Shown here: one piece after another, positions 5,432 to 58,374 of the stretch | Numbering within the stretch: the stretch's first letter is position 1 | Layout of the letters: every line of letters starts with the position of its first letter | DNA from: Thermococcus cleftensis | Lineage (GTDB): Archaea > Methanobacteriota_B > Thermococci > Thermococcales > Thermococcaceae | Reading direction: 5' to 3' | Length of the DNA: 64,000 bases | Assembly (NCBI RefSeq): GCF_000265525.1 | Contig: NC_018015.1 | Coordinates: 780,322 to 844,321 of the forward strand | The notes under the pieces: model-generated | What the model was told of the DNA's origin: nothing | Database searches by the model: none | The model's input: only the letters and a program-made list of their open reading frames with translations | Position numbers and translations under genes: made by a program

Positions 5432-6352
5432 ATGATACTGGAGAAGATAAAGGGAGAGGTCGGAAAGGCCATCGTGGGAATGGACGAGATAGTCGAGCTG
5501 ATGACGATAGCCCTGATAGCCAACGGACACGTGCTCCTGGAGGGTGTTCCTGGGATAGCCAAGACAACCCTGAGCAAGAACTTTGCCAACACCCTCGGAC
5601 TGAAGTTCTCCAGGATACAGATGACTCCAGACCTGCTTCCAGCCGATATACTCGGCCACACCTTCTACGACATGCGCTCCGGGCAGTTCAAGCTGAGGAA
5701 GGGGCCGATATTCGCCAACGTGGTCCTGGTGGACGAGATAAACAGGGCCTCACCCAAGACCCAGTCGGCACTGCTGGAGGCGATGGAGGAGAGGCAGGTA
5801 ACGATAGATGGCCTGCCCCTCAAGCTGCCCGAACCCTTCATAGTTCTGGCCACCCGCAATCCAGTCGAGATGGAGGGCGTCTACGAGCTCCCGACCGCCC
5901 AGATGGACCGTTTCATGATGAAGGTAGACATGACGTACCTCCCGGAGGAGAGTGAAAAGGCGATGCTCCGGAGAAAGAGCCTCGGCCAGTTCACAGAGGC
6001 CCAGCAGGTCGTCCTGGGCAGCGAGATAGCGGGCGCCAAGAGGGAGGCCCTCGCAGTCAGGGTGAGCGATGCCATCATCGACTACATCTACGAGATAGTG
6101 AAGGAAACCAGGCTGGACGAGAGGGTTATCCTGGGCGCCTCCCCCAGGGCTGGTGAGCACCTTCTTTATGCCTCGAAGGTCAAGGCCTACCTGGAGGGCA
6201 GGAGCTATGTGATCCCAGACGACGTGAAGTGGCTTGCCGTCCCGGTGATAGCCCACAGGATAGTGGTGAAGCCCGAGTACGAGGTCGAGGGCGTAGATGG
6301 AAAGGGCATAGTGAGGGACGTCCTTGAGAGGGTAGAGGTGCCGACGGAATGA
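5432..6352 (+). CDS. MoxR-family AAA+ ATPase
   Basis: A 306-residue AAA+ ATPase. Walker A is GVPGIAKT (residues 38-45), Walker B is VLVDEINR, followed by ALLEAMEERQVT and the sensor stretch LATRNPVEMEG, all diagnostic of MoxR. MoxR ATPases act as chaperones that help mature or insert cofactor-bearing or surface complexes, typically with a DUF58 partner, which is the next gene. The ATG at 5432 is preferred over GTG 5423 because GGTGGT lies at 5422-5427. It overlaps the DUF58 gene by four bases, so the two are probably translationally coupled. Confidence 0.93.
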   Translation: MILEKIKGEVGKAIVGMDEIVELMTIALIANGHVLLEGVPGIAKTTLSKNFANTLGLKFSRIQMTPDLLPADILGHTFYDMRSGQFKLRKGPIFANVVLVDEINRASPKTQSALLEAMEERQVTIDGLPLKLPEPFIVLATRNPVEMEGVYELPTAQMDRFMMKVDMTYLPEESEKAMLRRKSLGQFTEAQQVVLGSEIAGAKREALAVRVSDAIIDYIYEIVKETRLDERVILGASPRAGEHLLYASKVKAYLEGRSYVIPDDVKWLAVPVIAHRIVVKPEYEVEGVDGKGIVRDVLERVEVPTE

Positions 6353-55243: not shown

Positions 55244-55556
55244 TTATGTTCTCTGTGCATTTGAAACTTCTTTTTCTCTCATGTGTGAGCCGAGCTGAAG
55301 AACAAAGAGCAGGAACACACCTAGTAGTCCCAGGTATTTCACTCCACTGTTCCAGAGGAAGAATATCGAAGAGAACATTGCCACGATTCCCGTAAGCCTA
55401 ATGTCATCTTTGTTTTCTGTTCTAAGGCTTAGGACGTATAAAACCAGCGAGAGCGTTCCAACAAACGCTGGAATTAACTTCGTGGAGTAAACTCCGTAGA
55501 TCAGTGCAAGAACGCTAAATGGGAACGGAAGCGAATATATAGTTTCTTCTTACCAT
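55244..55556 (-). pseudogene. Frameshifted small membrane protein of the halocin-like operon
   Basis: It begins at ATG 55556, with GAGGTG six bases upstream, as MVRRNYIFASVP, and runs into a stop after 13 codons. In another frame the DNA continues FSVLALIYGVYSTKLIPAFVGTLSLVLYVL and later helices (VAMFSSIFFLWN, LGLLGVFLLFVLQL) to 55244. Dropping one C from the CCC near 55520 rejoins them. The whole would be a protein of about 103 residues with three to four helices. The start overlaps the stop of the 82-residue gene, which suggests coupling. A sequencing error or a true mutation is possible. Confidence 0.65.
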
Positions 55557-55798
55557 TTGCGACACCTCAATCGCGGAAATCCCAGAAAAACAACCAGACC
55601 CCAGACTATGATTGCCACATTCCTAGTTAAAGATTGTTCTTTTCCTGGGAACAAGTAGCCGAGCAGGACGTCTCCCAAGATAAACAGCGCCACCTGCAAC
55701 AGACCGAAGGAAGAACCCTTTCTGGCAAGCTTTTCTAGGAACTCACCGGCTTCTTTCCCATTTTTAAATCTGTGTATCTCGATAGTGAGTATTTTCAT
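55550..55798 (-). CDS. Small two-helix membrane protein downstream of halocin-like gene
   Basis: An 82-residue protein: a short soluble start (MKILTIEIHRFKNGKEAGEFLEKL) and two helices (LLQVALFILGDVLLGYLF and VAIIVWGLVVFLGF). No known family. The ATG follows GGTGATGCGCC. It lies 51 bases after the halocin-like gene in the same direction, and its stop overlaps the next (frameshifted) gene. An immunity or export helper role is suggested only by position. Confidence 0.7.
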   Translation of the reverse strand: MKILTIEIHRFKNGKEAGEFLEKLARKGSSFGLLQVALFILGDVLLGYLFPGKEQSLTRNVAIIVWGLVVFLGFPRLRCRKW

Positions 55799-55849: not shown

Positions 55850-56791
55850 CTAACATGCCCCTGCGTACTCACAAATGAGTCCTGAACCTTTATCACAGCC
55901 ATAAATCTGTATTAATCCAAGAACTCCATCGCATAGTGGTAGGCATATACCCACACATATAAAAGCGGCGTACCCAAACTCTGCACATACACCTGCGCAG
56001 TATACTGTACACCCAAGGGCCTCTCCAACACCACCCACACAAATCAGAAAAACTAAAGCTTGGCAAATAGTACATTTCAGACCATCCATTGTCATTGCCA
56101 TTCCCACTGCCTTCTGCTGGTCGTACTGCGGGAGCTTGAGCTTCACTAGGTGCGACAGGTGCCTCAGCTCGTAGGCACTCCTGCCCCAAATCCAGTTCGT
56201 CTCATCGCCACGCCTGAGCTTCATGAGAACCTTGTTCAAAGTCCAGTAGTACTGAGAGAGCGTTAAGTTGCTGGCTGTGAGTATTACATCGCCGATCGGG
56301 AGAGACTTCTTCTCGTCTTTCGGAGCGATGTTCATTCCAGTAACGAAGGCTTTGTACTCTCCAGTTTTAGGGTCGGTAAAGATCCTCGTGATTAACGTGA
56401 AATTGTACTGGCTCCTCTCAGCCTTATAAACGAGGGCATAGAGAGTGTAATTGAGCGTGCTGTTGTAGAAATTCAGGCGAAGGAACAGCAACTGCTCGTG
56501 CTTCTTGCTCATGTTGTAGAGGGTAACCGCCGAAACGTTAACATTCGGCGTCATGTTGGAGTTACGATAAGGACAATCATTTGTAATGTTCGTGAAGTTC
56601 ACAACCTTGTTAATCCAAGTAACGTTCATCTGAAGCTTACCCTCATCATCGTACCAGGCAACCACGGCCCTTCTAAAGGTGATGCTGGCGTTGTTGGTAC
56701 TCATTGCCATTGCCTGCGGTGCCGCAATCAACTGAAGACTCAAAACCATGGTCATAAGGACGAGACCAAACACCGTCTTCTTCCAGTTCAT
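55850..56791 (-). CDS. Halocin C8-like secreted peptide precursor
   Basis: A 313-residue precursor. The signal peptide occupies residues 1-30 (TVFGLVLMTMVLSLQL..AMA), and a mainly beta, sequon-rich N-terminal region runs to about 235. A C-terminal domain of about 77 residues has 12 cysteines: C-x2-C-x7-C at its start (KCTICQALVFLIC) and C-x7-C-x5-C at its end (GCDKGSGLICEYAGAC). Halocin C8, as I recall its sequence, has the same C-x2-C-x7-C and C-x8-C-x5-C-type ends, the same length, and is cut from a precursor whose N-terminal part gives immunity. So this is a likely archaeocin. The ATG at 56791 follows GGTGGTGGCC. The cleavage point is not known. Confidence 0.8.
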   Translation of the reverse strand: MNWKKTVFGLVLMTMVLSLQLIAAPQAMAMSTNNASITFRRAVVAWYDDEGKLQMNVTWINKVVNFTNITNDCPYRNSNMTPNVNVSAVTLYNMSKKHEQLLFLRLNFYNSTLNYTLYALVYKAERSQYNFTLITRIFTDPKTGEYKAFVTGMNIAPKDEKKSLPIGDVILTASNLTLSQYYWTLNKVLMKLRRGDETNWIWGRSAYELRHLSHLVKLKLPQYDQQKAVGMAMTMDGLKCTICQALVFLICVGGVGEALGCTVYCAGVCAEFGYAAFICVGICLPLCDGVLGLIQIYGCDKGSGLICEYAGAC

Positions 56792-56801
56792 GGCCACCAC
56801 C

Positions 56802-56844
56802 TGACCAAATGGTCATTATGGGTAATAAAGAAAAGTATTTAAAT
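56802..56844 (-). promoter_or_regulatory. Promoter and inverted repeat of the halocin-like gene
   Basis: TATA is ATTTAAATA (56836-56844). TGACCA and TGGTCA with a two-base spacer (56802-56815) lie at the expected start and directly before the ribosome-binding site. This could be an operator or a leader hairpin. Confidence 0.55.
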
Positions 56845-56973
56845 GTTACTATTTACTAACATTATTAACTAACGCTTTTTTTTCGTAGAATTCTTAGTTT
56901 CCAACCGTATTAAAACGACGAGAACAAATCGAAAAAAGCCAGAGTAAAAGCCTGAACAAAAGAACACATTGGG

Positions 56974-57351
56974 TCATTTTTCCAGCACTTTCACCTTTAG
57001 CCCGTACTCCTCGAAGCGCTTGAAGTCGTCATCGCAGGTGTAGAGCGTTGCGTTGTGCGCTATGGCAGTGGAGGCTATTAAAAGGTCCTTAAACGGCGGT
57101 CTTTTTCCCTTCTTCATAAGGTCCCTGAAAATTGCTCCGGCTATCTTTGTGGAGTTCTCATCAAACTCGACTTTGGGCATCATCTCGAGCATCAGCTCCT
57201 CCCTCTCCTTCAGATGGCCGCAGTGGAGCTCAAAGAGAACGATGGTCGGTAGATGGTATTCCCTGGCTCCCTCCCGGTAGAGCGCCTCGACGACTTTCCT
57301 GTTCCCACCGAACAGCTCGATTACCACGCTGGTGTCCAGGAGTCCATCCAT
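56974..57351 (-). CDS. vapC: VapC-type PIN-domain ribonuclease toxin
   Basis: A 125-residue PIN domain. The acidic residues are Asp6 (LLDTSV), Glu41 (LFELHCG), Asp89 (FKDLLIAS) and Asp107-109 (CDDDF). VapC toxins cut RNA, often tRNA or rRNA, when freed from their antitoxin. The ATG lies within the antitoxin gene (31-base overlap), the usual arrangement. Transcription runs toward the halocin-like gene. No T-rich terminator is obvious between them. Confidence 0.92.
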
Positions 57352-57551
57352 TCTTCAACCTCCCTAAGCTCCCGCTTTAGCTCTTCAAGTTCTTCAGGCG
57401 TTCTCGTCCCGAAGGCGATCAGGAGCACGTCGAGGTTGCCCTTCTTTTTCTTGCCTATTAGCTCCCTCAAAAGCTCCGAGAAGCTCTTGTTCCCCTTCAT
57501 TTTGACTAGCTCGTAGTAAACGTCATCCGCTATGGTTATCGTTTTTCCCAA
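57321..57551 (-). CDS. vapB: VapB-type antitoxin (DUF217/UPF0330 type)
   Basis: A 76-residue protein starting [31 protein letters not shown], the ribbon-helix-helix-like DNA-binding N-terminus of archaeal VapB antitoxins. The charged tail ([18 protein letters not shown]) would bind VapC. The start is TTG 57551 after GGTGGGGAACG. An upstream start in the same frame would run through the promoter. It overlaps vapC by 31 bases. Confidence 0.85.
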
Positions 57552-57567
57552 CGTTCCCCACCTATAA

Positions 57568-57597
57568 GTGCATGCATGCACGAAATATTTAAAATTT
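57568..57597 (-). promoter_or_regulatory. vapBC promoter with perfect palindrome
   Basis: GTGCATGCATGCAC (57568-57581) is a perfect 14-base palindrome lying between an AT-rich TATA block (57583-57597) and the antitoxin start, the expected place for an autoregulatory operator bound by VapB or VapBC. Confidence 0.65.
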
Positions 57598-58374
57598 GCC
57601 CGTGAGCATTCCCCAAGCAACCCACAGCTCCGCAAGGACGATGAGAGTCAATGCCAGCGCTGTCAGCTTTCTGCTCTTTCTCGGCCCGTAGAGGCCGATT
57701 ATACCGAACAGAAAGTTTAGGCCCGAAAGCTCAAGGAGCGAGACCACCAGCTCCGTGTTCCTTCCAAATGCCACCATCTTCCCAATAAAATCATCACTCG
57801 CTGGATAGTTTGAATAAAGCGCTATGAGCCTGACCGCGACGAGGACTGCCGTGCAGAGGAGGTTCTGCTTTATGGGAACCCCAATCAAAAGCCCCCTGTC
57901 CGGCTCCCTCCCGGTGAAGAGCCGGTAGAGGGAATGGGGAAAGATAATAACCCATATGACCATTGAGACCAAAAGAACTAAGAAGGCAATGATTTCAGCA
58001 AACATTGCAATTCCGCTTAGAAGTCCCATCATTGGGTCTCCCGTCGCCAGAAGGGCCCACGCAAAGATACCCCAGAAGACAAGGGCGTCGCCGACGATAT
58101 TGAACACCTCTTTCGGAAGGTAGAGCCTCCCGTGGGTTTTCTCGATTATCTCCGGAAGGTGCCTTATGTCATTGCGGGAGTAGCCGTAGCGTTCAAGGGC
58201 TTTCCCTACGAAGTAAAGGGCAACGGCGATGAAGACTCCAAGGAGAAAGAAAACGATTAGAAGGCTAACGGCGTTGAGGCGTTCCCGCATTGGAGGGACG
58301 ATAAGCCAGAGGGCGAACCAAAAGACGACAATGAATGCCCAGGGAAGGAGGTAGTCCCTGACAAAGACCCGCAT
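57589..58374 (-). CDS. Polytopic membrane protein, function unknown
   Basis: A 261-residue protein with about seven helices ([73 protein letters not shown]). There is no recognised motif. A soluble loop carries [22 protein letters not shown]. The ATG at 58374 is 118 bases from the radical SAM gene upstream. Its 3' end overlaps the vapBC TATA region. Confidence 0.75.

Follow-up and report, generated by a model that had tools for sequence, protein, structure and literature searches.

A halocin C8-like tail on a constant thermococcal carrier: a putative polymorphic archaeocin system

The window that we analyzed, a stretch of 64,000 nucleotides of Thermococcus cleftensis DNA, contains a gene whose product ends in a cysteine-rich domain of the halocin C8 type, and the question it raises is whether this is a true halocin C8 precursor or a protein built on another plan. 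The initial annotation had taken the first view and ascribed to the protein the two parts of the halocin C8 precursor. For halocin C8, immunity is attributed to the N-terminal half of the precursor (review, PMC11509114), and proteolytic release of the C-terminal peptide is described for HalC8 and HalH4 (PMC12893001). We think it likely that the Thermococcaceae have instead a polymorphic archaeocin system, with a shared promoter and carrier behind which cassette and immunity are swapped, and that the present gene is one of its alleles.

A C8-like tail and its N-terminal carrier

The precursor gene (Table 1) has an alternative in-frame start, GTG at 56800. As the same gene is present in a second genome (G049) at 81% protein identity, it is not a chance open reading frame. 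The initial annotation had pointed to 12 Cys in the 77 C-terminal residues (237-313), and these are found there with the spacing that it gave: the first ones follow C-x2-C-x7-C (CTICQALVFLIC) and the last ones C-x5-C (CEYAGAC), as read from the sequence and its alignment with C8-like domains. The profile search that it proposed was significant; TIGR04449, the NCBIfam model of the halocin C8-like domain, matched residues 240-313 with 41.9 bits (curated cut-off 24 bits; E 1.5e-10) over profile positions 1-69 of 69. By this profile result, and beyond mere resemblance, the cassette belongs to the halocin C8-like domain family. The label itself is not new, because NCBI's profile already covers the tail. 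Makarova et al., in mBio in 2019, are said to have expanded the halocin C8 family across archaea.

Table 1. Features of the precursor locus, its chromosomal sites and related genes. Coordinates are those of the window unless a locus is named.
Feature	Coordinates	Strand	Evidence and remarks
Precursor gene	55850..56791	-	313 aa from ATG at 56791; conserved in relatives
Signal-peptide-like segment, residues 1-28	56708..56791	-	Inspection; hydrophobic core conserved in alignment; no twin-arginine motif
Constant carrier domain, residues 30-235	56087..56704	-	Alignment, sequon count, AlphaFold model
Junction motif G-x5-D, residues 230-236	56084..56104	-	Family similarity stops here; presumed cleavage region
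Exchangeable cassette, residues 237-313 and stop	55850..56083	-	12 Cys, halocin C8-like; TIGR04449 match, alignment with other C8-like domains
82-aa protein, two hydrophobic segments, family F69	55550..55798	-	51 nt after precursor stop; candidate cognate immunity protein
Conserved upstream region	56792..56970	-	Alignment of 24 upstream regions; common to members whatever the cassette
261-aa membrane protein, family F1	57589..58374	-	Family clustering; possible orphan immunity gene
68-aa gene with TM-like segments behind haloarchaeal halC8-like genes	L096 4304-4510; L097 4299-4505		
Site cbf5/methyltransferase			
Site radical SAM/ileS			The window's site
Site radA/nucS			
Site thermosome/Tyw3-like gene			

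The signal peptide that had been proposed is likewise in place as a signal-peptide-like segment: by inspection, the N-terminus has two lysines followed by a hydrophobic core that ends near residue 28, and no twin-arginine (Tat) motif. Of the supposed likeness to the halocin C8 precursor, the two-part, secreted-looking plan holds, but homology of the N-terminal part does not. The halocin C8 N-terminal domain of Pfam (PF22862) gave no match in the window protein at E up to 1, whereas the Halobacterium precursor, as positive control, matched at 2.7e-51; hhalign of the carrier against haloarchaeal N-parts returned a probability of 0.1%, a value that is weak alone, with three haloarchaeal rows only. 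The Pfam search of the window protein produced no match at all, Ig domains included, and searches of the PDB with the precursor, by sequence and by fold, had no significant match. The carrier has 11 N-x-S/T sequons where shuffling predicts 2.9, and the cassette has none; such an excess would fit an extracellular glycoprotein. AlphaFold models residues 36-235 as beta-rich with two helices, with fair to good confidence except in 65-82; it gives no confidence for the cassette and nothing reliable on its structure. Of 94 Thermococcaceae genomes, 29 encode the carrier; no further family has it in the 115 genomes of the phylum that were searched. Collections of phages, viral contigs and plasmids searched with the precursor or the carrier contained no match, so that nothing in them points to a viral or plasmid source.

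Exchange of tails behind the carrier

In nearly all relatives, similarity to the carrier stops at residue ~236, where the G-x5-D motif is nearly invariant. Behind this constant front the tails vary: they fall into about ten cassette classes with 6, 8, 10, 12, 16 or 20 Cys, a number that is almost always even; a single tail has 7 Cys, and in the 20-Cys class a copy with a deletion has 8. Classes were formed as blastp clusters and then refined by eye, before any pairs were counted; the final clustering used composition correction, without which Cys content merged unrelated tails. Profile comparison found most classes mutually unrelated, with 12F and 6E akin at 89% and 12S and 12T perhaps akin as well (51%), which leaves about eight independent classes. 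The six non-C8 classes scanned against NCBIfam matched no model, and no known delivery domain or enzymatic toxin domain was seen in them or, by Pfam, in the window protein. The claim of a C8-like precursor was right about its tail but missed that C8 is one tail of many and that the same genome holds two more copies: its three carriers bear a C8-like, a 20-Cys and a 16-Cys tail, the last one broken. In this 16-Cys paralogue (L046 6136-6864; C1:747090-747863 of the genome), a one-base deletion early in the cassette, relative to L061 and L063, shifts the reading frame, and mutation, sequencing error or phase variation may alike be the reason.

The tails have moved between loci. The N-parts of L050 and L056 are 91% identical and their tails unrelated, and the DNA identity of the two (87%) ends 47 nt before the cassette. 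Conversely, the second copy of L046 and L070 have a 20-Cys tail and the next gene in common at 83% DNA identity, with N-parts that are far more different. On a tree of the N-parts, the tail classes require 19 changes where the minimum would be 9, and a single clade of C8-bearing N-parts is rejected (p-AU 1.2e-5). At L052, a truncated carrier (from about residue 137) with a different cassette lies behind a complete precursor gene (6008-6307), an arrangement reminiscent of silent cassettes at polymorphic toxin loci. Most modules occupy one of four sites, which are named by the appearance of their neighbours (Table 1), and at one site ten cassette labels are found across different genomes.

The region upstream of the start codon is conserved for about 170 nt regardless of the cassette. 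It includes a TATA-like element at about 56836-56845 and, between this and the start codon, a palindrome (TGACCA-N2-TGGTCA, 56802-56815) that is largely conserved before any cassette and may serve as an operator or belong to the translation start region. Upstream of the precursor lies a VapBC-type pair with VAPB_antitox and PIN domains (56974-57635), and similar pairs are found at the same site in several relatives; lying between the F1 gene and the precursor, it was set aside as an ordinary toxin-antitoxin neighbour.

Partner genes and their link to the tail

Each precursor is directly followed by a gene whose product has hydrophobic, TM-like segments. This downstream gene is shared by 106 of the 116 locus pairs whose cassettes agree and by 14 of the 919 whose cassettes differ, a degree of sharing matched by none of 2000 label shuffles, which take no account of relatedness among loci. 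Because of this, the comparison of loci by site outweighs the shuffles. Counting genes that start within 260 nt, the downstream TM gene is common in 51 of the 58 pairs with the same cassette at different sites and in none of the 155 pairs with different cassettes at the same site, so the partner gene goes with the tail, whatever the site. This pairing is explained most simply by a toxin and its immunity protein. If the tail were a peptide signal and the TM protein its matched receptor, in a quorum-sensing-like pair, pairing would be expected to be equally strict, but Pfam recognised no signalling domain (and no known immunity family) among the partner proteins, the tails are long and Cys-rich, and some genomes have partner genes in several copies or as orphans; we give such a signal very little credence. 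Orphans of F69, F56 and F73 were found, and orphan partner genes persist in genomes that lack any carrier. No dedicated protease or exporter gene was recognised in the neighbourhoods of the loci.

In the window, the gene directly downstream, at 55550-55798, is the candidate immunity gene that the precursor reading of the initial annotation had passed over. A homologue of its 82-aa product follows the matching cassette at L047 (46% identity, E 5e-20), the link between this cassette and this gene being seen in two genomes at the same chromosomal site. Further homologues adjoin ileS in other genomes, and in two genomes (G009 and G039) a homologue is present without any carrier match; these may be orphaned immunity genes or may just belong to the locus. 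Judged by sequence, the downstream gene appears a better immunity candidate than the carrier, which, because one kind precedes about ten different cassettes, is a poor candidate for cassette-specific immunity and unlikely to be a specific immunity factor. This bears on the view that the protein is a true halocin C8-type precursor whose N-terminal half is itself the immunity protein. The C8-like domain, the two-part plan and the N-terminal immunity published for halocin C8 (PMC11509114) all speak for it, but they have to be set against an N-part with neither a PF22862 match nor profile similarity to those of haloarchaea, its occurrence before about ten cassette classes and the cassette-specific TM genes downstream, and we regard it as quite improbable.

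The 261-aa F1 protein of the window is predicted to be an all-helical membrane protein; it had no significant match in a fold search and is distantly related to the partners of 16-Cys cassettes. As an immunity gene of the 16-Cys type, 57589-58374 is a weakened candidate: most linked members are about 20-26% identical to it, and others from that site 55-64%.

A second thermococcal precursor family also has C8-like tails (L075 12135-12929, L085 6713-7498, L086 6102-6887 and L087 6952-7719). Its N-part, of about 180 aa, is without similarity to the present carrier, and three of the four loci have, directly downstream, a gene for a small protein with TM-like segments. Two of its members, L085 and L086, share with L052 of the present family both the C8 subtype (43%, E 1.4e-14) and the partner family F73 (33%, E 4.5e-7), and in the 94 genomes F73 occurs only at these places and as one orphan with a stop. 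Such sharing is relevant to another explanation, in which a variable surface protein would evade viruses or mark self with its Cys-rich tip, the TM protein would be its anchor or partner and no killing would be involved. A sequon-rich carrier that looks secreted, hydrophobic tails and different alleles at fixed loci would suit a surface protein, and VARTIG, a hypervariable module of open function, is known in Thermococcales (PMC8416519). Yet one of the tail classes belongs to a known antimicrobial family, tail and partner occur together on an unrelated carrier as well, and an anchor role would not explain the partner genes that persist in genomes without the carrier, which makes a surface protein improbable.

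The proposed system and its relatives

In the polymorphic archaeocin system that we favour, the carrier (residues 1-235), probably glycosylated, would be exported and would hold the exchangeable C-terminal peptide, hydrophobic and rich in disulfides, in an inactive or soluble state. A protease, extracellular by analogy with HalC8/HalH4, would cut near G-x5-D and free the peptide, here 77 aa with 12 Cys and halocin C8-like, which would then attack close relatives, with the membrane as the probable target. The cassette-specific small membrane protein from the downstream gene (here 55550-55798) would protect the producer. Recombination at a few fixed chromosomal sites, within the conserved DNA of promoter and carrier, would swap cassette and protector jointly. 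The sequences themselves show that the front is constant, that the tails vary and are linked to their partners, and that exchange has taken place between loci; export, cleavage, killing and immunity are steps that we infer.

With halocin C8 (HalC8/ProC8) and TIGR04449 the present protein shares a C-terminal Cys-rich domain with the same first and last Cys spacing in a longer precursor. It differs in an N-part that is not PF22862, in the lack of a Tat motif, in its 12 Cys as opposed to the 10 of HalC8, in the separate cassette-specific TM gene and in the further tail classes that the carrier bears elsewhere. Polymorphic toxin systems of the type of Zhang et al. 2012, CdiA and MafB among them, likewise combine a constant N-part with an exchanged C-terminal effector, a matched gene directly downstream, here with a putative immunity function, and orphan cassettes and partner genes; the present precursors, however, are small (about 300-370 aa), their partners are membrane proteins, and the effectors are disulfide-rich peptides with no known enzyme or delivery domain. 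VARTIG (PMC8416519) likewise belongs to Thermococcales, varies in its C-terminal part and is accompanied by genes for membrane proteins, but consists of large Ig-domain proteins, unlike the window protein with its lack of an Ig domain or any Pfam match.

The family thus looks like one of exchangeable microbial weapons and not like a copy of the salt-lake system of halocin C8. The literature that we searched contained no account of swapped tails with matched TM genes and, for Thermococcales, none of an antimicrobial peptide system that has its own matched immunity; an earlier description of the carrier is possible. On balance, and by a modest degree of belief, we take the system to be an undescribed one of the Thermococcales, with a glycosylated carrier, about eight unrelated classes of disulfide-rich peptides, membrane immunity proteins of their own, recombination at few fixed sites and pairs that move between unrelated carriers. 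If so, about ten peptide classes, each with a protection gene to match, would become available in a group of which some members, Thermococcus kodakarensis for one, can be manipulated genetically, together with a source of very stable disulfide-rich peptides. The system would also allow a concrete test of the C8-type immunity mechanism, haloarchaea included.

Finally, the haloarchaeal relatives were found with the mature HalC8 sequence as a query, which was used only for this purpose. The halC8-like gene of Halobacterium and of Haloferax larsenii is followed, after about 20-25 nt, by a 68-aa gene with hydrophobic segments. This suggests that a separate immunity partner may be common, haloarchaea included, and does not overturn the published N-terminal immunity. 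In the plasmid collection, every record with the 68-aa gene had a halC8-like gene too.
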